From Rhodobacter capsulatus (GTDB lineage: Bacteria; Pseudomonadota; Alphaproteobacteria; Rhodobacterales; Rhodobacteraceae), in assembly GCF_003254295.1 (NCBI RefSeq), contig NZ_QKZO01000014.1, forward strand, positions 1 through 64,000: DNA of 64,000 bases. The letters run 5' to 3'. This document shows, piece after piece, positions 1 to 28,179 of the stretch; position 1 is the stretch's first letter; the number at the start of each line of letters is the position of its first letter. Below the pieces are notes generated by a model. That model was not told where the DNA came from. It saw only the letters and a list, made by a program, of their open reading frames with translations, and made no database searches. A program made the position numbers and the translations under genes.

Positions 1-741
1 CCGTCCGGCCTGTTCGCCTCGGGCGAAATCGGCTGGGTCGAGCCGATGATCCCCGGCGTGACGCTGTTTCAGGATGCGGCCGGGACGATCCCGGTCACCG
101 CGGCGGGGCAGCCGGTGGGGCTGTCGAAATTCACCGCGGGCGGGCAGATCGGTTTCGTGCAGGCGACGGCGGCCAATCGCCCGATCTATCAGCTCGATGC
201 GCAGGGCCGCGGCTGTCTGGCCCATAACGGGCTCAACCAGTGGATGGCGGCGGCCGCGATCGCCTGGGGGTCGGACGAGGCCACGATCTGCGCGGGGGTG
301 CGCAAGCTGTCGGATGCGGCCCAGGGCGTCGTGTTCGAGACGGGCACAAACTCTGGCGGCGGCGGGGCGGAGAGCGGCGTGTTCGCGCTGCTGGCGCCGC
401 GGACCGCGGCCGATTTCGGAGTGAATTTCAAGGGATCGCAGATTTCTGCCGCGACCAGTGCCGGGCAGGCCGCGCCGAAAACGGTCGTCGTGACGGGCAT
501 CGGCAAGATCTCGGCGGACATCATCCGGCTGCGTATCAACGGCGTTCCGGACGCGCAATCTGCCGCGGATCAGGGCCTGGGCAGCTACGGCACCTATCCG
601 CTTTACGCCGGGGCGCGGGCCGGAACGGGGGTGTATCTGAACGGCGCCCGCTATCCGTCGGTGGGCCTCAACCGGTTGCTGACCGAGGCCGAGCTGGCGC
701 AGCTCGAGGCCTGGGTGAACGCACGCACCGGGGCGTTCTGA
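1..741 (+). CDS. Phage-like / lectin-like protein, C-terminal part (5' end outside window)
   Basis: The reading frame is open from base 1 and ends at TGA 739-741, so the start lies upstream of the window. The visible part is about 246 residues. It begins with GLFASGEIGWVEP followed by TLFQDAAGTIPVTAAGQPVG, a segment I know from phage-tail-associated and concanavalin-like proteins of alphaproteobacteria. There it precedes a jelly-roll-like domain with an NRPIYQ motif, also present here. The rest is rich in Gly, Ala and Thr and has no catalytic motif I recognise. No signal peptide can be judged because the N-terminus is missing. The next gene, on the same strand 208 bp downstream, is the giant octad-repeat protein. 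Function is unknown; a binding or structural role is an inference. Confidence 0.6.
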   Translation, partial: PSGLFASGEIGWVEPMIPGVTLFQDAAGTIPVTAAGQPVGLSKFTAGGQIGFVQATAANRPIYQLDAQGRGCLAHNGLNQWMAAAAIAWGSDEATICAGVRKLSDAAQGVVFETGTNSGGGGAESGVFALLAPRTAADFGVNFKGSQISAATSAGQAAPKTVVVTGIGKISADIIRLRINGVPDAQSAADQGLGSYGTYPLYAGARAGTGVYLNGARYPSVGLNRLLTEAELAQLEAWVNARTGAF

Positions 742-949
742 AGCCGCCCCGGAGGATCGCGACCCGACCGCGCCTGTCGCGCCCGCGCCGATCGGCAAGG
801 CGGCATTTTCCGCCCGGACATCGGCGCAAGCGCAACAGATTTAAGGCTTCTTTCACTCCCCTGACCGATGATCGGCGCGCGGCATTCCAGAACGGCGGTG
901 CCAGAAACAGATCCGGGCCCGCAGGGGCCCCTTCAGGGTGAGTGGCAGA

Positions 950-3900
950 ATGTCCCTTCTCAGCACGATGACGACGGCCGAAATCGCGGCGCTGTCGACC
1001 TCGGTCATGTCCGGTCTGACGACGGGCGATATCGTCGGCGTCAGCCCGGAGCAGATGCGGGCCCTGGGCGCGGCGCAGATCCAGGCGCTGTCGACTGCTT
1101 TCGTCTCGGGGCTGACGCCGCTGCAGATGCAGATGCTGACCACCGACCAGTTCGCCGCGCTGCTGTTTCCGCAGATCGCGGTGCTGAACACCGTCGCGCT
1201 GCGCGGCCTTTCGACCGAGGCGATCGTCGCGCTGACCACGGAACAGGCGGCCGCGCTGACCTCGGCGCAGGTCGCGGCGCTCTCGACGCTGCAGATCAGC
1301 GCCTTTGAAACCGCCGATCTGGCGATGCTGGGCGCGGATGCGATGCTTGGCCTGACCGCGACGCAGATGCGGGCGCTGGCCACGCGGCAGGTCGCGGCGC
1401 TCACCCTTGATCAGCTCAATGTGCTGACCGCGACCGCGGCCGCGGCCGTCAGTTCGGCGCAGCTTTCGGCCCTGAGCACGGCGCAGATCGCCGCGCTGAA
1501 CGAGCCTGCGGTGACCGCGCTGGGCACGGCGGCGCTGCGCGGGTTGGCGACAGAGGACATCGTGGCGCTGAGCGCCGATGCCGCCGCGGCCTTGACCGCA
1601 ACGCAGATCGCCGCGCTGAGCACCGAGCAGCTGGCGGCTTTCGAGACCGTCGATTTCGCGCATCTGAGCACCGCGGCTCTGGCCGGGCTGGGCTCGGCGC
1701 AGATCCGCAGCCTGTCCACCGACAAGCTGGCGGCGCTGGCGAGCGAGCAGATGGCGGGGCTCACGAGCAGCATGATCCAGGGTCTGGGCACCGATCAGAT
1801 CGGCGCCTTTTCGACGGCGCAGATCCGCGCGCTGGCCAGCCGGGCGGCGACGGCGCTGAGTTCGGCGCAGCTCTCGGCGCTCTCGGCCGCGCAGATCGGC
1901 GCCTTTTCCGGCGCGGCCTTCGCGGCGATCGGCACCGCCGCGCTGAAGGGACTTTCGACCGAGGACATGGCCGGCCTGAGCACGGTCGAACTTGCGGCGC
2001 TGACCGGGGCGCAGATGACGGCGCTGAGCACCGCGCAGCTGGGGGCGCTGGGCACGGCGCAGATCGCCGCGCTGTCCGAGGCGGCCGCCGAGGCGCTGAG
2101 TTCGGCGCAGATCGACGCTTTCTCCACCGCGCAGATCGCGGCTTTGGGCAGTTCTGCCTTTGCGGCGCTGGGCACGGCGGCGCTGCGGGCGCTGACGACC
2201 GAGGATATCGTGGCGCTGACCCAGGCGCAGGCGGCGGCGATGACCGAGACGCAGGTGGCGGCGCTGAGCACCGAACAGATCGCGGCGCTCGAAGTCGAGG
2301 ATTTCGCCCGGCTCTCGGGCGAGGCGGCGGCCGGGCTGGGCGCGGCGCAGATCGCGGCGCTGAAAGAGGCGCATCTGGCGGCGATGGGCACGGCGATCCT
2401 GGCGGGTCTGGGCAGTGCGGCGGTGGCGGGGTTCGGCACGGCGCAGATCGGCGCGCTTGGCACGGCGCAGCTGGCGGCGATCAGCGCGAGCGGCGCGGCG
2501 GGCCTGAGTTCGGCGCAGCTGGCGGCGCTGGAGACCGGGCAGATCGCGGCGCTGGCCACGGCGGCGATCGCCGGGCTGTCGACGGCGGGGCTGCGCGGGC
2601 TTTCGGCCGAGGATATCGCGGCGCTGACGACGGCGCAGGCGCGGGCGCTGAAATCGGCGCAGGTCGCGGCGCTGACGACGGCGCAGATCGCCGCCTTCGA
2701 GACCGAGGACATGGCGGTGCTCGGGTCGGCCGCGCTGTCCGGGCTGGGCTCGGCGCAGGCGCGGGCGCTGAGCACGGCGCAGATCGCGACGCTGGGCACG
2801 GCGCAGATCGCGGGGCTGGGCAGCGCGGCGGTTTCGGGGCTGAGCGCGACACAGATCGGCAGGCTGAGCACCGCACAGATCGGCGCGCTCTCCAGCCTTG
2901 CGGTGGCCGGGCTCGGTTCGGCGCAGGCGGCGGCGCTGAGCACGGCGCAGGTCGCGGCGCTGGCCTCGGCGACGGTGGCGGCGCTGGGCACGGCGGCGAT
3001 CCGCGGCCTTGGGACCGATGACATCGTGGCGCTGACGACGGCGCAGGCGGCGCGTCTGGGCTCGGTGCAGATCGGCGCGCTGACCAGCACGCAGATCGCG
3101 GCCTTCGAGGCGGGCGATCTGGCGCAGATCAGCGCGACGGCACTGGCCGGGCTCGGCTCGGCCACGATTGCCGGGCTGTCGGGCGCGCAGATCGGGGGGC
3201 TTTCGACGCGGCAGATCGCGGGTCTGACGAACACCGCGATCCCGGGTCTGAGCGCGACGCAGATCGGCGCCTTCGGCACCGCGCAGATCCGCGCGCTTTC
3301 CAGCAGTGCAGTGCGCGGGCTGACCTCGGCGCAGATGGCGGCGTTGAGCACGACGCAGCTGGCGGCGCTGAACACGGCCAGCCTGACGGCGCTGAGTGCC
3401 AATGCGATCAAGGGCCTCGGCACCGATGACATCGTGGCGCTGACGACGGCGCAGGCGGCGGCGCTGGGTTCGACGCAGCTTCTGGCGCTGTCCAGCACGC
3501 AGGTGGCGGCGCTGGAGACCGCCGATCTGGTGCGGCTCGGGGTCGAGGCGTTGGCGGGCTTCGGTTCGACCCAGATCAAGGGGCTGTCGACGCGGCAGAT
3601 CGCGGCCCTGCTGGCCGATCAGGTCGCCGCCCTGTCGCAGGAGGCGGTGACGGCGCTGGGCACGGCACAGCTGGCCAGCCTTGGCACCGATCAGGTCGCG
3701 GCGCTGGCCAGCACCGCGGTCGGCGGGCTCGGCTCGGCGCAGATCGCGGCGCTGACCACGGCGCAGATCGCCGCGATCGCCACCGACAGCTTTGCCGCGC
3801 TGGCCAGTGGCGCGCTGAAAGGGCTTGCGACCGGCGACATCGTCGCGCTGACCGGCGATCAGATGGCGGCGATGACCTCGCAACAGGTGGCGGCGCTGAG

Positions 3901-6900
3901 CACGGCGCAGCTTGCCGCGATCGAGGTCGAGGATCTGACCCGGCTTTCGACGACGGCGCTGGCCGGGCTCGGCTCGGCGCAGATCAAATGCCTGAGCGGC
4001 GCGCAGATCGGCGTCCTTGGCGCCGATCTGATCGCCAGCCTGTCGAGCGCGGCGATTGCCGGTCTGACCACCGGCCAGATCGCCGGGCTGACCGCCGATC
4101 AGATCGCCGCGCTGTCGAGCAGCGCCGCCGGGGCGCTGAGTTCGTCGCAGATCGCGGCGCTGGACACGGCGCAGATCGCGGCTTTCAGCACGGCGGCGAT
4201 GGCGACGCTGGGCACGGCGGCGCTCAAGGGGCTGAGCGGCGCGGCGGTGGCGGCGCTGAGCGGCGATCAGGTCGGCGCGATGACCTCGACGCAGGTCGCG
4301 GCGCTGAGTTCGCAGCAGATCGCGGCGCTGGAAGCGGGCGATCTGGCGCGGCTGACCACCACCGCGATGCCGGGGCTGGGCTCCAATCAGGTCAAGGGCC
4401 TGAGCCTGACGCAGATGGCGGCGCTTGGCACCGAACAGGTGGCCTGCCTGAGCAGCACGGCGCTGGGCGCGCTGTCGACGGCGCAGGTGGCGGCGCTGGC
4501 GGGCGATCAGCTGGCGGCGCTTTCGGCGGGCGGCGGCGCCGGGATGGGCTCGGCGCAGATCGCCGCCCTTTCCACCGCGCAGATCGCCGCGCTGTCGACG
4601 GCGGCGCTTTCGGCGCTGAGCCCCTCGGCGCTGGCGGGCCTTGGCACGAATGACATCGTCGCGCTGACCGCCGAGGCGGCGGCGGCGCTGATGTCGCGCC
4701 AGATCGCCGCCCTGACGACGACGCAGATCGCCGCCTTCCAGACCGAGGATCTGGCGCAGGTGGCCACCACCGCGATCCGGGGCCTGACCTCGGCGCAGGC
4801 GCGGGTGCTCTCGACGGCGCAACTGGCCAGCCTTTCGGCCGATCAGGTCACCGCGCTGTCCAGCGGCGCGCTGTCGGGGTTGAGCACGGCGCAGATCGCC
4901 AGCCTCTCGCTGGAGCAGCTGGGCGCGCTCTCGGCCACCGCCGCGCGCGGGCTGAGCGCGGCGCAGCTGACGGCGCTGGGCACGGCGCAGGTCGCGGCGC
5001 TGTCGACGGCGGCGGTCGGCGGGCTGGGCACCGCCGCGCTGGCCGGGCTGGGCACAAATGACATCGCCGCGCTGGAGGGCGAGGCGGTGGCGGCGCTGAC
5101 CTCGACCCAGATCGCGGCTTTCAGCACGGCGCAGATCCGCGCCATCGACACCGCGGATCTGGGCCAGCTGGGCACGCTGGCGTTGCAGGGCCTGAGCTCG
5201 GATCAGATCGTCGGGCTGAGCACGGCGCAGATCGCGGCACTGAGCCTTGCGCAGGTGGCGCGGCTGAGCACGGCGGCGGTTCTTGGCCTCGGCACGGCGC
5301 AGCTGGCGGGGTTCACGGTCGAGCAGATCGGCGCGTTTTCGGCCACCGCGGCCCGGACGCTGAGCGCGACGCAGGTGGCGGGTTTCGACACGGCGCAGAT
5401 CGCGGCGTTGGGCACGGCGGCGGTGGCGGCGCTGACGACGACGGCGCTGGCGGGGCTGGACACGGCGGACATGGCGGCGCTGAACGATGCGGCGGTGGCG
5501 GCGCTGACCTCGGGGCAGCTGGCGGCCCTGACCTCGCGCCAGGTCGGCGCGCTCGAGATCGACGATTTCGGCCGCCTCTCCAGCGCGGCGATGGCGGGCT
5601 TTGGCGCGGCGCAGGTGGCCGGGCTGGGCACGGCGCAGATCGTCGCGCTGGGGGCGACGCGGATCGGGCAGCTGGGCACGGCGGCGATCGCGGCCTTTTC
5701 GACCGGGCAGATCGCCGCCCTGTCCACCGCTCAGGCGCGGGCGATTTCCGGCGGCGCGGCGCGCGGCTTCAGCGCCGCACAGGTGGCCGCCTTCACCACC
5801 GAGCAGATCGAGGCGCTGAGCACGGCGGCGGTGGCGGCGCTGGGCACGGCGGCGTTGGCCGGGCTGGCAAGCGAGGATATCGTGGCGCTGACCACGGCGC
5901 AGGCGGCGCGTCTGACCTCGGCGCAGATCGGCGCGCTCACCACGACGCAGGTCGCCGCCTTCGAGACCGAGGATCTGGCGCAGATCGCCCCCTCGTCGTT
6001 GCGGGCGTTGGGCTCGGCGCAGCTTGCCGCCTTCTCGACGCGGCAGGTGGCGGCGCTGTCGACCGGGGCGATCGGCGCGCTGAGCACGGCCGCGCTGAAG
6101 GGGCTCGGCACGAATGACATCGTCGCCCTGACCACGGCGCAGGCGGCACGGCTGAGCGCGGCGCAGATCGCAGCGCTGAGCACGGCGCAGATCGCGGCGC
6201 TGGAAACCGCGGATATCGCCCAGCTTTCGGTCTCGGCCATGGCGGGGTTCGGGACCGCGCTGATGCCAGGCCTGAGCACGGCGCAGATCCGCGCCCTGAC
6301 CACGGCGCAGATCGCGCGGCTGACCGGCGCGGCGATTGCCGGGCTGACGACGCGGCAGATCGCGGCGCTGAGCACGGCGCAGGTCGCGGCGCTGTCGAGC
6401 GCGGCGGTCACCGCGCTTGGCTCGGCGCAGCTGGCGGCTTTCGGCACGGCGCAGATCGCGGCGCTGGGCAGCGCGGTCATTCCGGCGCTGACCACGGCGG
6501 CGCTGCGCGGGATGGAAACCGCCGATGTCGCCGCCCTGACCGGGGCGCAGGTCGCCCGGCTCGGCTCGGCGCAGATCCGGGCGCTGTCGGCGGCGCAGAT
6601 CGCCGCCCTTGACGCCGCGGATGTGGCGCAGCTTGCGCCCGTGGCGATGGCGGGGATCGGCGCGGCGCAGATGGCGGCCTTTGACACCGCGCAGATCGCC
6701 GCGCTGACGGAAATGCAGATGGCGCGGCTTGGCTCGGCGGCGATCGCGGGCCTCGGCGTGCCGCAGATCGCGGCGATGACGACCGCGCAGATCCGCGCCA
6801 TCGCCGCCGCCGCGGCCGCCGCTTTCGGCTCGGCGCAGCTTGCGGCCTTCGAGACCGGGCAGATCGCCGCGCTGGGCACCGGCGCGCTGGCGGGCCTGGG

Positions 6901-7795
6901 CACGGCAGCGCTGCGCGGCCTCTCGACGGCGCAGATCGCGGCCCTGACCACGGCGCAGGCACCGGTTCTGAGTTCGACGCAAATCGCCGCGCTGAGCACC
7001 GCGCAGATCGCCGCCCTTGAGGCCGAAGATCTGGCGCGGCTCTCGGCGACGGCCTTTGGCGGCCTCGGGTCGGGTCAGCTTGCCAGCCTTGACACCACGC
7101 AGATCGCCGCGATTTCCGCGACACAGATCGCCCGGCTGACCGCCACGGCGATCACCGGCCTGACCACGGCGCAGGCGGCGGCGCTCTCGACCGATCAGGT
7201 GCGCGGCATTTCGGCCAGCGCGATCCGTGCGCTCGGCTCGACGCAGGTCGCCGCGCTCTCGACCGATCAGATCGCCGCAATCGGCACCGCGGCGCTGGCC
7301 GCGCTCTCGACCACGGCGCTGCGCGGGCTTGGCACCGATGATGTGCGCGCGCTGACCACGACGCAGGCCGCAAGCCTGACGTTGAGCCAGGTGGCGGCGC
7401 TGAGCACGGCGCAGGTGCGGGCGCTGGAGGCGCAGGATCTGGCCCGGATCAGCGCCGCGGCGATCGTCGGCCTTGGCACGGCGCAGATCGGCAGCCTGGC
7501 CAGCGCGCAGGCGGCAGCGCTGATGACCGCGCAGGTCGCCAGCCTGACCACGGCGCAGATCCATGCGCTGAGCACCGCCGCCGTCACGGCGCTGTCGACG
7601 GCGGCGATCCGCGCCCTGCGCACGACGCAGATGGGCGGCTGGACCACCGCGCAGATCGCGGCCTTCACGCTGGATCAGATCGTCGCGCTGGAAACCGCCG
7701 ACATCCGGGCGCTGACCGGAATTCAGGTCGCCGCCTTTACCGAGACGCAGCGCGACGCGATGACGGCGGCGCAGATCGCGGCGCTGTCGCTTTAA
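950..7795 (+). CDS. Giant octad-repeat protein, 2281 aa
   Basis: No known function. After a six-residue leader (MSLLST) the protein is an unbroken run of 284 octads of the type L-[STG]-[TS]-A-Q-[IV]-A-[AG], ending in LSL. The octads group into modules of 17 (136 aa), recognisable by a [LI]-x-x-x-[AG]-[LI]-[RKA]-G octad followed by a T-[ED]-D-I-V-A octad, with an acidic F/L-E-x-x-D octad at position 6. Almost no aromatic, Cys or Lys residues occur. There is no signal peptide, membrane segment or RTX motif. S/T at octad position 2 and Q at 5 suggest an N-capped short helical turn per octad and so a long solenoid; this is inference. ATG 950 is preferred (GGTGAG at 937-942); GTG 938 would add four residues. 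The stop overlaps the convergent GNAT gene in TTAA. Candidates are a surface or adhesin-like scaffold or a phage-derived fibre. Confidence 0.85.
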   Translation: MSLLSTMTTAEIAALSTSVMSGLTTGDIVGVSPEQMRALGAAQIQALSTAFVSGLTPLQMQMLTTDQFAALLFPQIAVLNTVALRGLSTEAIVALTTEQAAALTSAQVAALSTLQISAFETADLAMLGADAMLGLTATQMRALATRQVAALTLDQLNVLTATAAAAVSSAQLSALSTAQIAALNEPAVTALGTAALRGLATEDIVALSADAAAALTATQIAALSTEQLAAFETVDFAHLSTAALAGLGSAQIRSLSTDKLAALASEQMAGLTSSMIQGLGTDQIGAFSTAQIRALASRAATALSSAQLSALSAAQIGAFSGAAFAAIGTAALKGLSTEDMAGLSTVELAALTGAQMTALSTAQLGALGTAQIAALSEAAAEALSSAQIDAFSTAQIAALGSSAFAALGTAALRALTTEDIVALTQAQAAAMTETQVAALSTEQIAALEVEDFARLSGEAAAGLGAAQIAALKEAHLAAMGTAILAGLGSAAVAGFGTAQIGALGTAQLAAISASGAAGLSSAQLAALETGQIAALATAAIAGLSTAGLRGLSAEDIAALTTAQARALKSAQVAALTTAQIAAFETEDMAVLGSAALSGLGSAQARALSTAQIATLGTAQIAGLGSAAVSGLSATQIGRLSTAQIGALSSLAVAGLGSAQAAALSTAQVAALASATVAALGTAAIRGLGTDDIVALTTAQAARLGSVQIGALTSTQIAAFEAGDLAQISATALAGLGSATIAGLSGAQIGGLSTRQIAGLTNTAIPGLSATQIGAFGTAQIRALSSSAVRGLTSAQMAALSTTQLAALNTASLTALSANAIKGLGTDDIVALTTAQAAALGSTQLLALSSTQVAALETADLVRLGVEALAGFGSTQIKGLSTRQIAALLADQVAALSQEAVTALGTAQLASLGTDQVAALASTAVGGLGSAQIAALTTAQIAAIATDSFAALASGALKGLATGDIVALTGDQMAAMTSQQVAALSTAQLAAIEVEDLTRLSTTALAGLGSAQIKCLSGAQIGVLGADLIASLSSAAIAGLTTGQIAGLTADQIAALSSSAAGALSSSQIAALDTAQIAAFSTAAMATLGTAALKGLSGAAVAALSGDQVGAMTSTQVAALSSQQIAALEAGDLARLTTTAMPGLGSNQVKGLSLTQMAALGTEQVACLSSTALGALSTAQVAALAGDQLAALSAGGGAGMGSAQIAALSTAQIAALSTAALSALSPSALAGLGTNDIVALTAEAAAALMSRQIAALTTTQIAAFQTEDLAQVATTAIRGLTSAQARVLSTAQLASLSADQVTALSSGALSGLSTAQIASLSLEQLGALSATAARGLSAAQLTALGTAQVAALSTAAVGGLGTAALAGLGTNDIAALEGEAVAALTSTQIAAFSTAQIRAIDTADLGQLGTLALQGLSSDQIVGLSTAQIAALSLAQVARLSTAAVLGLGTAQLAGFTVEQIGAFSATAARTLSATQVAGFDTAQIAALGTAAVAALTTTALAGLDTADMAALNDAAVAALTSGQLAALTSRQVGALEIDDFGRLSSAAMAGFGAAQVAGLGTAQIVALGATRIGQLGTAAIAAFSTGQIAALSTAQARAISGGAARGFSAAQVAAFTTEQIEALSTAAVAALGTAALAGLASEDIVALTTAQAARLTSAQIGALTTTQVAAFETEDLAQIAPSSLRALGSAQLAAFSTRQVAALSTGAIGALSTAALKGLGTNDIVALTTAQAARLSAAQIAALSTAQIAALETADIAQLSVSAMAGFGTALMPGLSTAQIRALTTAQIARLTGAAIAGLTTRQIAALSTAQVAALSSAAVTALGSAQLAAFGTAQIAALGSAVIPALTTAALRGMETADVAALTGAQVARLGSAQIRALSAAQIAALDAADVAQLAPVAMAGIGAAQMAAFDTAQIAALTEMQMARLGSAAIAGLGVPQIAAMTTAQIRAIAAAAAAAFGSAQLAAFETGQIAALGTGALAGLGTAALRGLSTAQIAALTTAQAPVLSSTQIAALSTAQIAALEAEDLARLSATAFGGLGSGQLASLDTTQIAAISATQIARLTATAITGLTTAQAAALSTDQVRGISASAIRALGSTQVAALSTDQIAAIGTAALAALSTTALRGLGTDDVRALTTTQAASLTLSQVAALSTAQVRALEAQDLARISAAAIVGLGTAQIGSLASAQAAALMTAQVASLTTAQIHALSTAAVTALSTAAIRALRTTQMGGWTTAQIAAFTLDQIVALETADIRALTGIQVAAFTETQRDAMTAAQIAALSL
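968..7783 (+). repeat. Nested coding repeat: 24-bp octads in 408-bp modules
   Basis: The coding region is 284 tandem 24-bp units with consensus close to CTGAGCACGGCGCAGATCGC plus GGCG. Module borders by my parse: 968, 1184 (14 octads), 1520 (17), 1928 (10), then nine 17-octad modules starting at 2168 with 408-bp steps to 5839, 5840 (10 octads), three 17-octad modules 6080-7303, and a last 20-octad module 7304-7783. The two short modules each lack exactly seven octads. Confidence 0.9.
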
Positions 7796-8517
7796 GCGGC
7801 CGCCGCGGGCCGGTCGAGCAGATAGCGGCAGCTCTGGCGGTCGAAGCCGGTGATCGCCAGACCCGCGGCAAAGGCCTCTTGCAGGGCGGCGCGCAGGCGC
7901 ATCCGTTCGGCCAGGGCGCGGGCCGGATCGGCCTGCAGGAGCGCGTCGATATCGGCGGGGATCCCGGCTGTGGCCGCGGTCTGCGGCGCGGGCGACGGCT
8001 GGCCCGCGGCCCGGGCGACGACCCACGGCGCATCGAGCTGCCAGACCGCCATCACCCGGTCCGAGGGCAGGCCCGCATTGATCCCCGGCATCGGCCCGTA
8101 ATAATCGGGCAGATACTCCTGCGCCCTCGCCCCCAGCACCGCGATGTTCAGCCCGGCATTGATCGCGCGCAGGGGATCATAGGTCCAGCGCACCAGCCGG
8201 ATGCCGCGCGCCAGACACCAGTCGCGCTGGAACCATTTCAGCCGCGCCCCCAGCCCCAGACCGCGCGCCTTTTGCGACACCGCCAGCCGGTGCGAATGCT
8301 GCACCCCGGGCGTGGCGCTGGGGAAACCGAAGAGAAACCCCAGCATCTGATCGCCCGCAAAGGCCCCGGCCACCAGCGCGCCTTCGTGCTGAAGCGCCAG
8401 CATGATGTCGCTGTTGTCGGGCCGCTCGCCCTCGCCCCAGACCTCGACCTGAAAGCGCTCGGCCTGTTGCAGCTCGGCGACGCCCGCAAGCTCGCGCAGG
8501 ATCACCGCGGCGGTCAT
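7792..8517 (-). CDS. GNAT-family N-acyltransferase (COG3375-like)
   Basis: A 241-residue protein of the GNAT superfamily. It would transfer an acyl group from acyl-CoA to an amine in the cytoplasm. The central segment HSHRLAVSQKARGLGLGARLK is the acetyl-CoA-binding motif A (V-x-x-x-x-R-G-x-G-x-G/A). The preceding GDQMLGFLFGFP strand and the later WTYDPLRAINAGLNI are typical of the COG3375 group. Its ATG overlaps the stop of the enolase-superfamily gene by ATGA, so the two are probably translated together. Acyl-CoA transferases of this type occur with N-succinylamino acid racemases in pathways converting D- to L-amino acids, which makes an amino acid N-succinyltransferase a reasonable guess. 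Its stop codon shares TTAA with the end of the octad-repeat gene. The substrate is not shown by the sequence. Confidence 0.75.
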   Translation of the reverse strand: MTAAVILRELAGVAELQQAERFQVEVWGEGERPDNSDIMLALQHEGALVAGAFAGDQMLGFLFGFPSATPGVQHSHRLAVSQKARGLGLGARLKWFQRDWCLARGIRLVRWTYDPLRAINAGLNIAVLGARAQEYLPDYYGPMPGINAGLPSDRVMAVWQLDAPWVVARAAGQPSPAPQTAATAGIPADIDALLQADPARALAERMRLRAALQEAFAAGLAITGFDRQSCRYLLDRPAAAA

Positions 8518-13923: not shown

Positions 13924-15168
13924 ATGCCCGCACTCGATCACCCGGCATCCGCGATGCTCGACCTCGATTCCGCCCGCCGTCTGGCCTGCGGTCTGGTCGC
14001 GCCGATCGGCGACAGCGAAAGTCTCGATCTGGCGCAGGCCACGGGCCGCACCTCGGCCAGCAGCCTGCGCGCCGAGATCGCCCTGCCCCGCACCGCCCGC
14101 GCGGCGATGGACGGTTTTGCCCTGCGCACCGCCGATCTGGCCGCGGCTCTGACGCTGCCCGTCGCGGGCACGGTCGCGGCCGGGATGCAGGCGCCCCCCC
14201 TGCCCGAAGGCGCCGCGCTGCGCATCTTCACCGGCGCGCAGATCCCCGCGGGCGCCGATGCCGTCGTGCCGGTCGAAGAGGTGACCGAGACCGGCGCCGA
14301 GGTGCAGCTGACCGCCGTCCCCGCGCCGGGGTCGCATATCCGCGCCGTGGGCTCGGAACAGCCTGCGGGCGGGCTTTTGCTGCGCCGCGGCACCCGCCTT
14401 CGGGCGCATCACATCGGCCTTCTGGCCTCGAACGGCGTGGCCCGGGTCGAGGTCGTGCGCCGTCCGCGGCTGGCGATCCTGTCGACCGGCGACGAGCTGC
14501 ACCGGCCGGAGGCCGCAGGATCGTCGCGGGACACGATGCCGGATGTGAACCGGCCCATGCTGATCGCGCTGGCGCAAGGCGCGGGCGCCGAGGTCGACGA
14601 TCACGGCATCCTGCCCGACGAGGCCGAGGCGACGGTGGCGAAATTCGCCAGCCTGCAGGGGCGTTATGATCTGATCGTGACCACCGGCGCGGTGTCGATG
14701 GGCGGGCGCGATCACCTGCGCCCGGCGCTGCTTGCGGCGGGCGGGCAGATCGACGGCTGGAAAGTGGCGCTCAAGCCCGGCAAGCCGGTGATGTTCGGCC
14801 GTCTGGGCACTGCGGCGGTGACCGGCCTGCCCGGCAATCCGTTCTCGGCGATGGTCGGCTTCACGCTCTTCGTCTCGGCGCAGATCGCCCGGCTGAAGGG
14901 CGCGGTTCCGGCGCCGCTCTTCCATTGTGCCGGACGGGCCGGGTTCGACTGGATCCGCAAGCCGGGCCGGGCCGAGATCTTCCCGATCCGGCTTGGAAAC
15001 CGGGAAATCGACGGCCTGCCGGTGGTGCAGCGTCTGGGCGAGGGCACCTCGGCCACGCTCTTTCCGCTCGCCGAGGCGGATGGTCTGGGCTTCGTGTCGG
15101 CGGAGACCACCCGGGTCGGCGTCGGCACGCCGATCTGCTGGCAGCCTTTCGAGGCCGGAAACCGCTGA
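13924..15168 (+). CDS. moeA: Molybdopterin molybdenumtransferase MoeA
   Basis: A 414-residue protein that inserts molybdate into adenylated molybdopterin to give Moco. It shows the MoeA order of domains: domain I/II (PRTARAAMDGFALR with the conserved D-G-[FY]-A, then FTGAQIPAGADAVV), domain III (RLAILSTGDEL, TTGAVSMGGRD, KPGKPVMFG, GLPGNPFSAMV) and a C-terminal beta domain. The start ATG 13924 follows an AAAGGA box. It stands alone on the plus strand, converging with the histidine kinase gene (4-bp gap). Moco supply matters for Mo enzymes of the host; the iron-only nitrogenase in this window does not use Moco. Confidence 0.93.
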   Translation: MPALDHPASAMLDLDSARRLACGLVAPIGDSESLDLAQATGRTSASSLRAEIALPRTARAAMDGFALRTADLAAALTLPVAGTVAAGMQAPPLPEGAALRIFTGAQIPAGADAVVPVEEVTETGAEVQLTAVPAPGSHIRAVGSEQPAGGLLLRRGTRLRAHHIGLLASNGVARVEVVRRPRLAILSTGDELHRPEAAGSSRDTMPDVNRPMLIALAQGAGAEVDDHGILPDEAEATVAKFASLQGRYDLIVTTGAVSMGGRDHLRPALLAAGGQIDGWKVALKPGKPVMFGRLGTAAVTGLPGNPFSAMVGFTLFVSAQIARLKGAVPAPLFHCAGRAGFDWIRKPGRAEIFPIRLGNREIDGLPVVQRLGEGTSATLFPLAEADGLGFVSAETTRVGVGTPICWQPFEAGNR

Positions 15169-15172
15169 GCGC

Positions 15173-17044
15173 TCAGCCCGCCGGGCGCAACCGCCCGGCC
15201 GAGGCCCCGGTCAGCGGCAGATTCAGCGGCAAATCGAGGCAGGCCACCGCCCCCAGCCCCTTGCCGGGGCTGGTCAGCGTCACCCTGCCCCCCAGCGCCG
15301 AGAGCGTGTTGGCGCACCAATGCAGCCCCAGCCCGCCGTGCTTGTCGGTGCGGGTGGAAAAGCCGCGCTCGAACAGCCGCGCCCCGGTGGCGGCATCGAA
15401 GCCGTCGCCATCATCGGCCAGCGTGACGCGGCAGCGCTGGCCGTCTTCGGAAAGCGTCACGCCGATCGCGATCCGGCCCTGCGCCCGGCCGCTGGCGGCG
15501 ATCGCCTCGGTGGCGTTGACGACCAGATTTTCCAGGATCTGCGCCAGCAGAACCCGGTTGCCGCGCACCTGCAGCCCCGGCGGACAGTCGATCGACAGAT
15601 CGATCTTCGGCCCTTCCACGAAGCGCGCCGCCGTCGCGGCCCGGCCCAGCGCCCGGGTCAGATCGCAGGCCTCGTCGCGGTTCACCCGGGCGGGATCGCG
15701 CGGCGCCCGCATCGCCTCGAGCGCCTCGGTCAGGCAGCGTCCCGCCTCCTGCAGCAGTGCACGCGCCTCGGCCCCGCGCTGGTCCCGCTCGGCGTCAAGC
15801 GCGTCAAGATAGGCGACCAGGCGCTCTCGGCGGTCCGCGGCGGTCTGCGGATCGGCCAGTTCCTGCCGCGCCCGGCCCGCCTCGGGCGGCAGGTCGGGGA
15901 GCAGATGGCGGTTCAGATCGGCCAGGATCACCCGCACCGGGCTGAGACTGTTGCGCAGATTGTGCAAAAGCCCGGTCGCATTCTGCTCGCGGCCAAGCGC
16001 GAAGGATTGCGCGGCATGAGACAGGCGCAAAGCCTCGAGTTCCGCCGCCATCTCGTTGAAATCCCGGTGCAGGGCGCCGATTTCATCGGCCCGCGGCGGG
16101 CCCTCGAACGGCACCAGCTCGCCCGCATGCCGGATCCGCACCACATGTTCGCGAAAGGCGAGGATCGGCGCCAGAACCTGCGTGGAGAGCCGCCGCCCGA
16201 GCAGCGCCATCAGCGCCGCCAGCAGGCCCAGCAGCGCCACGACAGTCAGATCGCGCAGCCGTTCGCCCGCCGCCAGCACAAGGCGCGGCAACTGAAAGCG
16301 CAGCATCGCCACCGGGGGCCCCGCGCCCATCGCCACCGGAACCGCGACATCCACAAGATCATCCGCGCCGACCACCACCGGCACCGTCGAAAAATCCGAA
16401 AAGTCGAGCCGCACCGGAACCTGCAGGGATTGGGACAGGCTCGCCGCCTCGATCAGATGCAGGAAGACCAGAACCCCCTCGGGCGTGCCCGCCCCGTTGC
16501 TGCGCCGCACCGGGGCGCTGGCCACGGCGTAAAGGCGCCCGCCCTGCTGCCAATAGCCCGCCGAGGCGGTCTTGCCATCGCGAGAGGGCTGCAACGCCAT
16601 GGCATCGACATCGGCCAGGACGGCGGTGGCCAGATCGGGGTCGGGCGCCCCGGTCTCGGGGTCGAAACAGAAGGCGCGTTGCGCGGACCGGTCCAGCCGC
16701 AGGAAGGCGGCGCAAGAGATTTCGGCATTGACGAAGGAGATCGCGTTGATGTTGCGGTCTTCATAAGCGCGATCAAAAGCGCGCAGGTAGAAGAAGGTCT
16801 CGTCCCAAAGCCCCCAGTCAAGCACATGCGCCTCGTTGGCGACAAGACCGGCGCTCAGCGCCGCCCGGGCGCGGTCGACGTCCCGGCCGATCTCGGCATT
16901 TTCCAGTGCGCCGAAACTGCTGTGGATCATCACGCCAAGCACCATCGCAAACAGCGCCGCCGCGCTGATGCCGATCGCCGTCAGTTCGAAGATCAGGGCG
17001 GCGCGCAGGCTTTTGGCGCGCGGGACGGGCAGGCGCAGGCGCAT
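15173..17044 (-). CDS. CHASE4-type membrane sensor histidine kinase
   Basis: A 623-residue sensor kinase. One membrane helix at about 14-40 and a second at about 265-290 enclose a periplasmic CHASE4-like domain (NEAHVLDWGLWDETFFYL is characteristic). Then come a HAMP linker, a kinase region with an atypical phospho-acceptor box (GLLHNLRNSLSPVRV) and an HATPase_c domain with N box (LENLVVNATEAI), G1 (LADDGDGFD) and G2 (GGLGLHWC). The gene follows the REC-GGDEF-EAL regulator by 9 bp on the same strand, so the two probably form a signalling pair linking an extracytoplasmic cue to cyclic-di-GMP. The ligand is unknown. Confidence 0.88.
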   Translation of the reverse strand: MRLRLPVPRAKSLRAALIFELTAIGISAAALFAMVLGVMIHSSFGALENAEIGRDVDRARAALSAGLVANEAHVLDWGLWDETFFYLRAFDRAYEDRNINAISFVNAEISCAAFLRLDRSAQRAFCFDPETGAPDPDLATAVLADVDAMALQPSRDGKTASAGYWQQGGRLYAVASAPVRRSNGAGTPEGVLVFLHLIEAASLSQSLQVPVRLDFSDFSTVPVVVGADDLVDVAVPVAMGAGPPVAMLRFQLPRLVLAAGERLRDLTVVALLGLLAALMALLGRRLSTQVLAPILAFREHVVRIRHAGELVPFEGPPRADEIGALHRDFNEMAAELEALRLSHAAQSFALGREQNATGLLHNLRNSLSPVRVILADLNRHLLPDLPPEAGRARQELADPQTAADRRERLVAYLDALDAERDQRGAEARALLQEAGRCLTEALEAMRAPRDPARVNRDEACDLTRALGRAATAARFVEGPKIDLSIDCPPGLQVRGNRVLLAQILENLVVNATEAIAASGRAQGRIAIGVTLSEDGQRCRVTLADDGDGFDAATGARLFERGFSTRTDKHGGLGLHWCANTLSALGGRVTLTSPGKGLGAVACLDLPLNLPLTGASAGRLRPAG

Positions 17045-17053
17045 CGCGTCGCC

Positions 17054-18886
17054 TTACCCTGCGGCGCTGCGGCTGGGTTCGCCCCCGGAGGCGGAGAGAA
17101 CCCGCTCCACCGCCTGACCCTGGCCGAACAGGAAGCCCTGCAGATGGGTGCAGCCGAGTTGGCGCAACACGTCGCGTTGGCTGATCCGTTCCACCCCCTC
17201 GGCGACGATGTCAAGGCCCAGCCCCGCGGCCAGATGCGACAGCGCGGTGACGATGGCGGCCGAGGGGCGATCGCGGTCCATTCCCTCGATGAAACTGCGG
17301 TCGATCTTGATCGCATCGACGGCAAGATCCTGCAGATGGGTGATGCTGGAAGCGCCGGTGCCGAAATCGTCGATCGCCACCCGGAAACCCTGGGCGCGCA
17401 GCTCGTCGACGATCTTGCGGCTTTGCCGGGCATGGGCGCGCAGCGTGCTTTCGGTGACCTCGATCTGGATCAGCGCCGGGGCAAGGCCGTTCTGCCGCGC
17501 CTCGGCGGCGAGGCGGGCAACGAAATCCTGACGCTGGAACTGCCGCGGCGAGAAGTTGATCGCGGTGAACTTTCCAGGCCAGCCGCGGGCATCGCACAGC
17601 ACCCGTTCCACCACCCAGTCGCCCAGAAGCAGCGTCACCGGGCTTTCCTCGGCGATCGGCATGAAGACGCCGGGCGGCACGGTGCCGTAATCGCGGCTGT
17701 TCCAGCGCAACAGCGCCTCGTAGCCCACCACCTCCAGCGTGTCCGAGGCGACGATGGGCTGGTAATGGATCGACAATTCCGCGCTGGCGAGCGCGTAGAA
17801 CAGCCCCGCCTCGATGCGCTGGCGAAACTGCTGGCTGGCGTCGAGCTGCTTGTCGAACACCCGCACCGTCTGGCCGCCATCCTGTTTCGCGGCAAACAGC
17901 GCCAGATCGGCAAAGCGCATCAGATCGGCGGCGTCGCAATCGGGATGGCACGACCCGTCAACCAGCCCGCAGGAGGCGCCGATGAAGACCGAATTGCCGA
18001 AAACCGAGAAATCCCCCGAACAGGTTTCCAAAAGCCCCTGACAGGTGGCCACCGCCGTCTCCCGGTCCGTCCCGGTCAGCAACACGCCGAATTCGTCGCC
18101 CCCCAGACGCGCCACCATCGTCCCCTCGGGGGCGCGGGCGCAAAAGGCGGCACAGGCCATGCGGATGACTTCGTCGCCGGCGTCATGGCCGAAGGTGTCG
18201 TTCACATGCTTGAAATGGTCGAGATCAAGGAAAGCGACGAAAAGATCGTTCGGCCCGGCCTCAAGCCGTTCGACCAGCCGGTTCTGGAACGCCATCCGGT
18301 TCGCCGCGCCGGTCAGGAAATCATGGCTGGCGATGTGCTGGGCGCGGGCCTCGCTGGCGGCGAGTTCGGCGATCTTGGCGCGCAGGACCATCAGCTGGCG
18401 GGTGTCATTGTCCCATCTTTCGCACAGGGCCCGGGCCATCTGCCGCACCTCGTCGGGCTCGAAGGGCTTGCAGATGTAAAAGATCCTGTCGGCCGGACCG
18501 GCCACGGCGGTGATGTCGGTCACCGAATGGTCCGACCAGGCCGACACGATGACGATCTGCAGATCGGGGTCGATCGCGCGCAAGCGGCGCGCGGTTTCCT
18601 TGCCGTCGATCCCCGGCGGCATCCGCACGTCGACAAAGGCGACCTTGAAGGGCGTGCCCTCCTGCAGGGCCCGCGCCGCCAGCTCGATACCCTCCAGCCC
18701 CTGCGCGGCAAAGCTGACCTCGAAGGCCGGGGCCTCCCGGGACACCGGCGGCGGAAGCGCGGCGCCGAAGAGTTCCTCGGCCAGCGCATCGGCGCGGGAC
18801 AGGGAACGGGAGGGGGCGGGGCTGGAAAACAAAAGGCGATAGGCGTCGCGAACGGCGGCTTCGTCATCAATGACGAGAATGGACAT
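17054..18886 (-). CDS. Response regulator with GGDEF and EAL domains
   Basis: A 610-residue hybrid. The REC domain (1-150) has the acidic pair VIDDE, the phospho-acceptor Asp in FVDVRMPPG and the conserved Lys in YICKPF. The GGDEF domain (about 190-350) has an intact RLGGDEFG active site, and the EAL domain (about 370-600) has YEALLRW, IEVTES, IDDFGTG, KIDRSFI and VAEGVER. Both halves therefore appear catalytically competent, making it a possible bifunctional cyclic-di-GMP synthase/phosphodiesterase gated by phosphorylation. Start ATG 18886 follows GGAGGACC. It is the first gene of a two-gene unit with the CHASE4 kinase. Confidence 0.92.
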   Translation of the reverse strand: MSILVIDDEAAVRDAYRLLFSSPAPSRSLSRADALAEELFGAALPPPVSREAPAFEVSFAAQGLEGIELAARALQEGTPFKVAFVDVRMPPGIDGKETARRLRAIDPDLQIVIVSAWSDHSVTDITAVAGPADRIFYICKPFEPDEVRQMARALCERWDNDTRQLMVLRAKIAELAASEARAQHIASHDFLTGAANRMAFQNRLVERLEAGPNDLFVAFLDLDHFKHVNDTFGHDAGDEVIRMACAAFCARAPEGTMVARLGGDEFGVLLTGTDRETAVATCQGLLETCSGDFSVFGNSVFIGASCGLVDGSCHPDCDAADLMRFADLALFAAKQDGGQTVRVFDKQLDASQQFRQRIEAGLFYALASAELSIHYQPIVASDTLEVVGYEALLRWNSRDYGTVPPGVFMPIAEESPVTLLLGDWVVERVLCDARGWPGKFTAINFSPRQFQRQDFVARLAAEARQNGLAPALIQIEVTESTLRAHARQSRKIVDELRAQGFRVAIDDFGTGASSITHLQDLAVDAIKIDRSFIEGMDRDRPSAAIVTALSHLAAGLGLDIVAEGVERISQRDVLRQLGCTHLQGFLFGQGQAVERVLSASGGEPSRSAAG

Positions 18887-18961
18887 GCGGTCCTCCCGGA
18901 GATTTGGGCCGAGACTAGCCGCAAGTCGTTAAGGATCGGTTTGCCCGGTCAAGGACGACCG

Positions 18962-20080
18962 TCAGCCCGCCAGAACCTTGCGAAACCGCGCCAGAACGAT
19001 CGTCACCGCCACCGCCGCCATGCCCGCCATCACCGCCATTTCCGGCCAGACCAGCGCCAGCCCCGCGCCGCGATACAGCACCGCCTGCGCGAAGATGACG
19101 AAATGCGTCGCGGGGGAAATCGCCCGCATCGTCCCCTGCAGCCAGTCGGGCATCGATTCCAGCGGCGTCATCCCCCCGGAAAGCAGGATCATCAGCACGA
19201 TCACCGGAATGACCAGAAGCCCGAACTGCCCCATCGTCCGGGTGAAGGAGGCCAAAAGCAGCCCGAGGCTCGCCACCGCCACCACATAGATCGCCGCGCC
19301 GCTGGCATAAAGCCAAAGCGAGCCCGCCACCGGCACGCCCATCGCGCCCTCGACCACCACCACAAGGCTGAACAGCGACGCCAACAGGATCACCGCCCCC
19401 GAGGCGAGGATCTTTGCCGCGACGATCTCGTGCGGGCGCACGGGCATCACCAGCACATGTTCGATCGTGCCATGTTCGCGCTCGCGGATCATCGAGGCGC
19501 CCGACAGGATCAGCATCAGGATGGTGACATTGTTCATCAGCTGCATCACCGCGCTGAACCAGCTGGAGGTCAGGTTCGGGTTGAAGGCGTTGCGAAACAC
19601 CACCCGAACCGGATCGGCGCTGGCCGCGCCGGGGGACAGCGCGGCGGAAAGCTCCTGCGACAGGGTCTGGCGCAGGAAACTGGCGCCATTGCCCGCCTGC
19701 GCCACCGCCGTCGCATCGACAAGGATCTGCAGCGTCGTCGCGCGGCCCGCATGCAGGTCGCGCTCGAAATCGGGCGGGATCGTCAGCACCAGGATCGCCT
19801 CGCCCGCGCGTTGGGCGGCGGCGGCCTGCTCGGCGGTCATCGGCACCGGCGCGGCGAAAAGCGGCGGGCGGATCGCATCGGACAGCCGGGCGGACAGCGG
19901 ACTGCGGTCCTCGTCCACCACGGCGGTGGCCAGATGATCCACCTCGGTGCTGGCGGCGTCGGACACCAGCCAGACCGCCAGGGTGAAGACATAGGCGATC
20001 AGCACCAGCATCACCCGGTCGGTGCGGATCGCCCGCAGCTCCTTGCCGGTCAGCCACAGAATGTTGCGAAGGCTGCGCAT
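18962..20080 (-). CDS. ABC-2 type export permease (YhhJ/YbhR-like)
   Basis: A 372-residue ABC-2 permease with one N-terminal membrane helix, a large extracytoplasmic region (about 45-170) and five C-terminal helices. The conserved IREREHGTIEHVLVMPVRPHEIVAAKI cytoplasmic loop of the ABC-2 family is present. It follows the fused ATPase/permease gene with no gap (ATG at 20080, previous stop 20081-20083). Together with that protein and the HlyD-like adaptor it forms a YhiI-RbbA-YhhJ type export system. Substrate unknown. Confidence 0.9.
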   Translation of the reverse strand: MRSLRNILWLTGKELRAIRTDRVMLVLIAYVFTLAVWLVSDAASTEVDHLATAVVDEDRSPLSARLSDAIRPPLFAAPVPMTAEQAAAAQRAGEAILVLTIPPDFERDLHAGRATTLQILVDATAVAQAGNGASFLRQTLSQELSAALSPGAASADPVRVVFRNAFNPNLTSSWFSAVMQLMNNVTILMLILSGASMIREREHGTIEHVLVMPVRPHEIVAAKILASGAVILLASLFSLVVVVEGAMGVPVAGSLWLYASGAAIYVVAVASLGLLLASFTRTMGQFGLLVIPVIVLMILLSGGMTPLESMPDWLQGTMRAISPATHFVIFAQAVLYRGAGLALVWPEMAVMAGMAAVAVTIVLARFRKVLAG

Positions 20081-22789: not shown

Positions 22790-22793
22790 CGGC

Positions 22794-23798
22794 CTACTCG
22801 GGCAGCTTCACCGCCAGATCGGCGGGCCAGGGCGTGTCGGGCGTCGCGCGCACGAAACCGATGCCGCGCACGCCGACCTTGACGCTGTCGGCAAAGCGCA
22901 ACAGCAGATCGCGCGGGATCGCCAGCTTGACGCGGAACACAAGATCGGCGCGCTCGGTGCTGGTTTCGACCGATTTCGGGGTGAATTGCGCCTGCGGGGC
23001 GACGAAACTGACCCGCGCGGGCACCACATATTGCGGCACCGGGTCCAGAACCAGCCGCGCCTCGTCATTCAGCGCCAAGGTGCCCACGACCGCGGCGGGC
23101 AGGTAAAGCACCATGTAAACATCGGTCAGATCCAGCAGCGTCACCACGGGCGTGCCCGCCGCGATCACCTCGCCCGGCTCGTGCAGCCGGTAGAGCACCC
23201 GGCCGCGGATCGGCGCGCGGATCACCAGATCTTCGAGCGCGATCTTCGCCTGTTCGCGGCTGGCTTCGGCCGCGGCGATCAGCGCGGTGGCGTTTTGCAC
23301 CTGCGCCCGCGCCGAGGCGAGCGAGGCCGTCGCCGCCGTCGCCCCGTTCACCGCATCGTCCAAGGTCGCCTGCGCCGCGTGGCCCTCGGCATGCAGCGTG
23401 GTGACCCGGGTCCGGGTCGTCACCGCCACGTCGAGCGCGCTTTGCGCCTGCATCACCGCCGCTTCGGCGCCCGCCTTGGCCGCCTCGGCCTGCAGCACCG
23501 CCGCCTCGGCCGCCAGCAGTTTCGCCTGCGCGTCGCGGTCATCAATCCGCGCCAGCACCGCCCCCGCCTCGACCATCTGCCCCTCTGACGCCGTGACCTC
23601 GGTCAGCCGCCCGGCATATTTTCCGGCCACATCGACGCTTTGCGTCTCAAGCCGCCCGTTCGAGGCGGTGACGCCGGTCTGATCCCCCGCCCCCTCGATC
23701 CGCGCCAAAAGCCCGGCAAAGGGCGATTGCGCCTGCACCGGCAGGCCAAGGGCCACAAGCCCGGCCAGAGAGACGACAGCGATACTGCGCAAGGACAT
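22794..23798 (-). CDS. HlyD/YhiI-type periplasmic adaptor protein
   Basis: A 334-residue membrane-fusion protein. The N-terminal 24 residues look like a signal peptide (ending VQAQ). A lipoyl-like half motif (VTASEGQMVEAGAVLARIDDRDAQ), a long Ala-rich coiled coil (about 95-190) and the returning half motif (APIRGRVLYRLHEPGEVIAAGTPVVTLLDL) follow in the usual order. It would link the inner-membrane ABC exporter to an outer-membrane channel; no such channel gene lies in this operon. First gene of the set, with GGAGG before the ATG and a perfect palindrome 27-42 bp upstream. Confidence 0.9.
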   Translation of the reverse strand: MSLRSIAVVSLAGLVALGLPVQAQSPFAGLLARIEGAGDQTGVTASNGRLETQSVDVAGKYAGRLTEVTASEGQMVEAGAVLARIDDRDAQAKLLAAEAAVLQAEAAKAGAEAAVMQAQSALDVAVTTRTRVTTLHAEGHAAQATLDDAVNGATAATASLASARAQVQNATALIAAAEASREQAKIALEDLVIRAPIRGRVLYRLHEPGEVIAAGTPVVTLLDLTDVYMVLYLPAAVVGTLALNDEARLVLDPVPQYVVPARVSFVAPQAQFTPKSVETSTERADLVFRVKLAIPRDLLLRFADSVKVGVRGIGFVRATPDTPWPADLAVKLPE

Positions 23799-23824
23799 CA
23801 GGGCCTCCGTGATGATCCGAAGTC

Positions 23825-23840
23825 TGAACCGGATGGTTCA
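23825..23840. promoter_or_regulatory. Palindrome TGAACC-N4-GGTTCA, candidate TetR-type operator
   Basis: TGAACCGGATGGTTCA is a 16-bp dyad with perfect 6-bp arms, centred about 34 bp upstream of the hlyD-like ATG. Position and form fit a TetR-family operator controlling the ABC exporter operon. No regulator gene is adjacent, so the cognate protein would be encoded elsewhere. Confidence 0.5.
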
Positions 23841-23925
23841 CCTAACAGGCGCCCGCGTCAAGCCGCGATGGCATCGCAAGCGCGTGAAGCAAAGGGGCGG
23901 GACGTTGCCGCCCCGCCCCGGTTTC

Positions 23926-27051: not shown

Positions 27052-27052
27052 G

Positions 27053-28153: not shown

Positions 28154-28179
28154 GGCAAACCTGTCTGCAGGGGGAAGGG

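Follow-up and report, generated by a model that had tools for sequence, protein, structure and literature searches.

An octad-repeat protein of 2281 residues in Rhodobacter capsulatus: register, 3.4-octad period and the association of its family with GT41 and type I secretion genes

An octad-repeat gene of the PF20080 family

We analysed a window of 64,000 nucleotides, namely positions 1 to 64,000 of contig NZ_QKZO01000014.1 (C14) of Rhodobacter capsulatus. Near its left end, a plus-strand gene encodes a protein of 2281 residues that is built of eight-residue units, here called octads, and belongs to the Pfam family PF20080 (Table 1). The open reading frame (ORF) is listed from a GTG at 938, and the ATG was taken as the start. 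The protein parses into the leader MSLLST, 284 octads, and the tail LSL, and the chain parse contains no step other than multiples of eight. An earlier reading of the letters without database searches, hereafter the sequence-only reading, had described this run of 284 octads without a register slip, and the parse bears it out. It had also given the unit as L-[ST]-T-A-Q-I-A-A. The octad period is firm, the identity at lag 8 being 0.366 against a maximum of 0.158 across 1000 residue shuffles, but the letters are loose: just six octads read exactly LSTAQIAA, and 264 of the 284 are distinct. All 284 octads have a hydrophobic residue at position 1, and 282 have one, or Ala, at position 6. Position 2 holds Ser, Thr, Asp, Asn or Gly in 241 octads, 67 of them with Gly, and Gln occupies position 5 in 156. 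Inspection of the leader by eye, with no predictor run, found no signal sequence; a short leader also precedes octad 1 in many PF20080 relatives.

Table 1. Features of the window; positions are counted from its first letter.
Feature	Position	Strand	Evidence
Octad-repeat (PF20080, ALTTAQ repeat) gene, 2281 residues	950..7795	+	octad parse, Pfam, purifying selection
Leader MSLLST, six residues	950..967	+	octad parse
284 consecutive octads	968..7783	+	octad parse, Fourier, coupling
Example 17-octad (136-residue) super-unit, octads 85-101 counted from 0	3008..3415	+	lag-17 identity, octad table, TRF period 408 bp
Predicted structure (AF2), octads 85-118	3008..3823	+	pLDDT 94.8, pTM 0.85, 55 sequences
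17 octads (136 residues) missing from the G010 orthologue (L029)	3428..3835	+	alignment; placement within the repeats arbitrary
Short super-unit of 10 octads (204-213)	5864..6103	+	octad table, by eye
Predicted structure (AF2), C-terminal 34 octads	6977..7792	+	pLDDT 92.4, pTM 0.83 (best model), 5 sequences
GNAT acetyltransferase gene, convergent neighbour	7792..8517	-	Pfam, phmmer
ABC-2 exporter with HlyD-family adaptor, then AcrB-type RND pump with adaptor: efflux cluster	20084-28183	-	gene content

The sequence-only reading knew of no named domain family with such a period. This claim fails, and the profile search that it had itself set beforehand as a refuting test placed the protein in a described repeat family. 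PF20080 (ALTTAQ repeat) spans the protein with 1293.5 bits against a gathering score of 26.4, and its 88 passing stretches are distributed over C14:1013-7789, that is, across the repeat region and not in isolated spots. The Pfam model is a 38-residue window, and the scan output states no octad unit, 3.4-octad twist or function. Within this named family, to which no function is assigned, the protein is a new member, long and well conserved. What the sequence-only reading missed is a 17-octad (136-residue) superperiod and the glycosyltransferase and secretion context of the family, both described below. Matches to HTH_25, Phage_TAC_7, DUF5440, a lanthipeptide leader and PRK15410 in the Pfam and NCBIfam scans were taken as chance, no stretch passing alone. 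Matches to leucine-rich-repeat-type entries of the PDB were taken as Leu-periodicity, because the octads are predicted to be helical.

Both the octads and the N-terminal start look alike in many relatives across several proteobacterial classes. The genome of the window holds a paralogue on contig C10 (L009). PF20080 occurs in 5 of 18 genomes of the genus, in 6 of 241 genomes of a class sample and in 56 of 72,556 plasmid records. A scan of genome contigs gave 30 loci in alpha-, beta- and gamma-proteobacteria, one Desulfuromonadaceae bin and a few unassigned bins; its query was one 433-residue stretch of the window protein, so that distant members are under-sampled. The 50,697 phage records searched contain no PF20080 match, and viral contigs yielded no relative that could be confirmed; on these grounds we rejected a phage or mobile origin. 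For comparison, we assembled 52 PF20080 frames from 44 sources. The lag, Fourier and register counts given here keep two repeats of the same genome (L031/L038 and L028/L039) as well as nested or broken frames such as the nested L036 frame. On this basis a strict register is common to 30 of the 52 frames, and the other 22 have at least one slip, the own-genome paralogue having 2 and other frames up to 14. The window protein is long and slip-free, yet it is not the longest, since one Pseudomonas frame has 5413 residues.

Among the titles listed by our literature searches, none concerned the PF20080 family or a function for its repeat, and none mentioned a 3.4-octad screw or a link to glycosyltransferase family 41 (GT41) or to a type I secretion system (T1SS). 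An alpha-solenoid review does not mention ALTTAQ (PMC11514114), and a second paper does not contain the word 'screw' (PMC12775518). Two plasmids carry the octad gene broken into several frames that adjoin or overlap one another (L035 10136-17577, L036 14181-19301), which may reflect frameshifts, decay or assembly error in the repeats. For the octad gene of Cereibacter sphaeroides 2.4.1 (L033 8087-12772) the annotation reads 'ICE nucleation protein', and for relatives 'heme utilization protein'; the window protein shows no motifs that would back either label.

The octad gene is under purifying selection, and the plus strand is the coding strand. Substitutions against three orthologues fall mostly at third positions of the plus frame, with ratios of nonsynonymous to synonymous substitution rates (dN/dS) of 0.24 for R. 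capsulatus SP108 (L031 = L038), 0.22 for genome G010 (L029) and 0.29 for R. viridis (L028 = L039). The window protein and these three orthologues count 284, 284, 284 and 267 octads, the last (L029) differing by exactly one 17-octad block. Opposite the octad gene, an antisense frame of 2452 residues is fully open, 668-8026(-). Its dN/dS is 1.0-1.6, and we rejected it as a gene because it is open but shows no protein-level constraint; it is probably an artefact of GC-rich repeats. A second antisense frame has dN/dS of 0.39-0.43 but contains 17 stops.

A second period of 3.4 octads and the predicted fold

Above the octad, the family carries a second period. Lag 17 is the best octad lag in 29 of the 52 frames, and 16 more have theirs at 7, 10, 24, 34, 44, 51 or 58. 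Counted in turns of 3.4 octads, none of the best lags of these 45 frames deviates from a whole number by more than 0.06 turn, and the remaining seven frames have best lags of 1, 2, 3, 5 or 6. Fourier analysis on octads was possible for 49 frames. In 32 of them the highest peak falls at 3.37-3.45 octads, in 31 cases above the largest of 100 octad shuffles, and the mean spectrum peaks at 3.39 octads with its other strong peaks near the aliased harmonics.

Such a period might have been left behind by an ancestral duplication of 17 octads and thus be uninformative on twist. In favour of this, 17 is the commonest best lag, any 17-unit tandem repeat peaks at multiples of 1/17, and among 21 runs without long-lag self-similarity just 8 peak individually at 3.38-3.42 octads (5 do so at 2.42-2.43). 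We nevertheless regard it as improbable. In the mean spectrum, 5/17 outweighs the other multiples of 1/17, and the mean of the 21 duplication-free runs is still led by a peak at 3.40, which is weaker (1.73 against a median of 0.96) and closely followed by the second harmonic at 2.43. The duplication-free spectra, like the coupling and size-correlation analyses, omit the two same-genome repeats (L031 = L038, L028 = L039) and the nested L036 frame. Couplings between octads, set out next, also argue against a mere by-product.

Coupling was measured as partial correlation over 9101 distinct 12-octad windows; this replaced a simple size-correlation by lag, in which contacts were mixed with periodicity. 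The summed coupling is 0.180, 0.263, 0.184, 0.213 and 0.206 at lags 1, 3, 4, 7 and 10, and 0.120-0.132 at lags 2, 5, 6, 8, 9 and 11. The leading couplings at +3 (position pairs 3-8, 6-5 and 3-5, also 4-4) and at +4 (7-2, 6-5 and 7-5) mostly link different positions, as contacts should, and those at lags 7 and 10 lie mainly between identical positions (4-4, 7-7, 3-3). When the frames were split into two subsets, roughly alpha and non-alpha with the unassigned bins L050 and L056 going one to each, lag 3 was highest in both and lags 10, 7 and 4 exceeded lags 2, 5, 6, 8, 9 and 11, the excess at lag 4 being small in the alpha subset. This pattern suggests a screw that takes 3.4 octads (27.2 residues) to complete a turn, with octad i touching octads i+3 and i+4. 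Twists of 2.43 or 5.67 octads per turn were rejected because lags 2, 5 and 6 couple at baseline only.

With this twist, five turns would take exactly 17 octads, which would explain the 17-octad superperiod, and the one-block difference of the G010 orthologue is consistent with this five-turn period. In octads 204-213 the 17-octad spacing is interrupted by a whole number of octads. When the window octads are folded on 17 and ordered by 5/17 turn, with octads from 214 onward shifted by 10 so as to keep the 17-phase, an acidic side, a Lys/Arg edge and an Ala5/Gly8 side poor in acids emerge; exceptions within this face pattern are single, e.g., Gln5 at 211 degrees. Of the forms that the sequence-only reading had considered, a very long solenoid is thus supported, and a ring is not, because a twist of 3.4 octads derived from sequence suggests an open screw.

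Structure prediction with AlphaFold2 (AF2) was run on two segments, for which Table 1 gives the predicted local distance difference test (pLDDT) and predicted template modelling (pTM) scores. In both predictions, nearly every octad has its own helix of 4-6 residues, mostly at positions 3-8. Position 2 would then be the N-cap because the helices span positions 3-8, and the N-capped helical turn per unit that had been proposed from sequence agrees with these models. The final helix of the C-terminal segment has 8 residues and is likely an end cap.

Foldseek returned eight matches with E <= 0.001 among the best 50 of 453 matches. The top one by E-value is the designed-crystal protein 8cws, with a TM-score of 0.18; the other seven are mesothelin, with TM-scores of 0.21-0.40 and 13-16% identity, the best query-normalised score (TMq) of 0.40 falling below the 0.5 same-fold mark. 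Mesothelin resembles the predicted form of the window protein in its short helices within a solenoid coil, which in mesothelin is right-handed and has repeats of 27-37 residues (PMC10035497). It differs in its irregular two- or three-helix repeats, its disulfides, and its nature as a glycosylphosphatidylinositol-anchored animal protein. The Pfam scan of the window protein gave no ARM or HEAT family match. Among solved structures, the closest sequence is HeliScrew4 (PDB 9zem; phmmer E 2.2e-13 over 106 residues), which shares the octad pattern as L-[TS]-P-E-Q-I-A-A, e.g., LTPEQIAA. It has 120 residues, about 15 octads, with Pro-Glu replacing Thr-Ala. From its name and sequence we take HeliScrew4 to be a designed protein, so closely similar octads appear to be known to designers already, and a paper on such designs may exist. 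The likeness seen is one of sequence, and a common fold is possible; 9zem is absent from the best 50 of the 453 Foldseek matches, drawn from a library reaching to April 2026.

Several points weigh against so regular a screw. The top Fourier peak lies away from 3.4 octads in 17 of the 49 frames, in 13 of them above every shuffle; several of these peaks are at 2.42-2.44, 5.4-5.8 or 8.2-8.5, near harmonics, with three at 2.0 and one at 4.4. There is no significant peak in the own-genome paralogue L009 or in its two orthologues L030 and L032, and one Caulobacter frame also lacks one. The coupling baseline consists of the other lags, not of shuffles, and the twist comes from sequence and not from coordinates. 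The C-terminal AF2 models fell to a pLDDT of 60.9, two of the five being poor. In addition, AF2 has been described as over-confident on solenoids of perfect repeats, chiefly beta-solenoids (PMC11795689).

Association with GT41 and type I secretion genes

The genes beside other PF20080 members point to a role outside the cell. The paralogue L009 lies 44 bp from a glycosyltransferase with TPR and GT41 (OGT-like) domains, with genes for a methyltransferase, an HlyD adaptor and an HlyB-like ABC exporter also nearby. The HlyD exceeds its NCBIfam cut-off. Close to this HlyB/HlyD pair, at 17726-19000 of L009, there is a serralysin-type M10 protease with RTX repeats, a possible second cargo. The PF20080 gene has GT41 within 0.8 kb at all five cluster loci of the genus, at four of the five plasmid loci to which the GT41 profile was applied (the fifth at 5.1 kb) and at 12 of the 28 named genome loci other than the window orthologues. 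In the five genus clusters, and also at L044, L046 and L049, the ORFs of the two genes are 0-86 bp apart. At these last three loci, which belong to the 12, GT41 was located just past the first flank; the other loci were compared by eye. Most of the GT41 neighbours scanned carry TPRs, and two more plasmid loci have an adjacent gene annotated as glycosyl transferase or TPR protein, by annotation only and outside the profile. A strong T1SS-type ABC match occurs within 5 kb at four of five genus cluster loci, three of five plasmid loci and 3 of the 28 named loci, and in a few further cases there are weaker ABC or HlyD matches near the PF20080 gene.

PF20080 and GT41 are found in exactly the same 5 of 18 genus genomes (Fisher p 1.2e-4), and GT41 is present somewhere in 29 of the 30 named PF20080 genomes. 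Cereibacter sphaeroides 2.4.1 has its PF20080 gene next to GT41, and Caulobacter vibrioides holds both families. Each of the four genomes of the genus that have the long gene contains an OGT-linked PF20080 cluster as well, and the N-terminal octads of the window protein resemble those of OGT-linked members. Of the 11 non-alpha frames whose C-terminal tails were examined, 10 end in a DxDGDG-type tail, the exception being L063, and sub-threshold EF-hand_5 matches occur in three of the five such tails scanned. These tails would be in keeping with calcium-dependent folding outside the cell.

Two known systems come close. As with RTX and other type I exoproteins, HlyD and ABC-exporter genes are found near some PF20080 relatives, in two cases together with TolC; the window protein differs in that it lacks both GGxGxD nonapeptides and a DxDGDG-type tail. 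FlmG of Caulobacter is a cytoplasmic TPR and GT-B O-glycosyltransferase (PMC7591256), like the TPR-bearing GT41 neighbours. Its substrates are flagellins and not octad rods beside type I secretion genes.

With moderate confidence, we favour the view that the window protein is a giant PF20080 screw rod that is probably exported by type I secretion, O-glycosylated by GT41, and deployed as a fibre outside the cell or on its surface. Each octad, L-[STG]-T-A-Q-I-A-A, would form a short helix over positions 3-8 with position 2 as N-cap, and Leu1 and Ile6 would point into the core. The octads would wind 3.4 to a turn, each packing on octads i+3 and i+4 of the next coil. The 284 octads would then make about 83-83.5 coils and, at an assumed 9-10 angstrom per coil, a rigid rod of roughly 75-85 nm. 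Exposed Ser and Thr may be O-glycosylated in the cytoplasm by the OGT-like GT41 encoded beside the paralogue, and the glycosylated rod may leave through the T1SS to serve in adhesion, spacing or as a coat. The product of the window gene would add a longer, second substrate to that of the paralogue cluster, because all four genus genomes with the long gene also hold that cluster.

Some genomic evidence weighs against this view of a glycosylated, exported rod. No GT41 or T1SS gene adjoins the window gene, whose contig holds only 0.9 kb upstream; the ABC genes closest to it encode an amino-acid-type ATPase at 9.6 kb and then, 12 kb on, the ABC-2 exporter at 20 kb, and the flanks examined of the orthologues L028, L029 and L031 contain neither GT41 nor T1SS. 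At L009 the HlyB-like exporter stays below its NCBIfam cut-off (558 against 725). Sixteen of the 28 named loci have no GT41 in the flank examined, some flanks being very short. The GT41 profile was built from ten neighbours, six of them Pfam-confirmed, those of the genus being found by a PF13844 search as well. In the class sample, which includes the genome of the window and used a stricter GT41 E-value, the association is modest: GT41 is present in 5 of 6 genomes with PF20080 and in 76 of the 235 without it (one-sided p 0.017). All co-occurrence counts treat related genomes as independent.

The bare surroundings of the window gene and its orthologues, the leader without a signal visible by eye and the conserved length would also suit the same screw rod acting as a cytoplasmic scaffold or spacer, with export and glycosylation reserved for the GT41/T1SS-linked paralogues. 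We consider this rather unlikely in view of the OGT-linked cluster in every genus genome with the long gene and the similarity of the N-terminal octads to those of OGT-linked members. It is unlikely, too, that the GT41 neighbour modifies another target, such as flagellin, and that the neighbourhood just marks islands of surface-structure genes. FlmG sets a precedent in Caulobacter, and GT41 is widespread in the class, being present in 81 of 241 genomes. Within the genus, however, GT41 is confined to the PF20080-bearing genomes (0 of 13 others) and directly adjoins the gene.

AGYGSTxT-type repeats are typical of bacterial ice-nucleation proteins, and GGxGxD nonapeptides of RTX proteins. Despite the 'ICE nucleation protein' and 'heme utilization protein' annotations in plasmid records, an ice-nucleation or haemagglutinin/haem-utilisation exoprotein is highly improbable, and we rejected these readings together with RTX: the motif scan of the window protein gave no match to AGYGS or GGxGxD, the protein is predicted to be all-helical, and the Pfam and NCBIfam scans contain no two-partner-secretion, RTX or ice-nucleation family.

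The proposed glycosylated, exported screw rod in R. capsulatus invites a more tentative extension to the family. PF20080 may perhaps be a distinct class of secreted glycoproteins, namely alpha-solenoid screws of eight-residue units with dedicated GT41 O-glycosylation in the cytoplasm, type I export and length changes in phase-preserving blocks. Such blocks would be 17 octads, or five turns, and the 10-octad unit, about three turns; the rod would be about 80 nm long in the organism of the window and longer in Pseudomonas. For a very short helical solenoid unit, sequence alone yields a candidate screw rule of 3.4 octads per turn with contacts at lags 3 and 4. Many bacterial OGT homologues have no assigned substrate, and the co-occurrence and adjacency within the genus make the PF20080 rods candidate substrates for them.

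Neighbouring genes and minor features

The neighbours of the octad gene encode the GNAT acetyltransferase, a mandelate-racemase-like enzyme and amino-acid-type ABC proteins. The GNAT gene recurs beside the orthologues L028, L029 and L031, and the ABC ATPase recurs beside orthologues too; both are probably unrelated to the function of the octad protein. The ABC-2/HlyD/RND cluster to the right is not a T1SS. Just upstream of the octad gene and near the contig edge, 46-741(+) encodes a 231-residue Laminin_G_3-like protein (27.1 bits, just below the Pfam cut-off of 27.6), of which no homologue is found in the L029 and L031 flanks. At 15176-18886(-), a CHASE4-HAMP sensor kinase adjoins a receiver-GGDEF-EAL protein, likely a cyclic di-GMP signalling pair. 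An open frame of 2651 residues at 14927-22882(+) runs over minus-strand genes with Pfam domains and is probably spurious. The promoter and terminator scan was uninformative. A GC-rich hairpin with a 6-pair stem lies at 915-930, about 20 bases before the start codon. The amino-acid reading directly upstream of the start is identical in R. viridis, and the hairpin is perhaps a conserved leader element.

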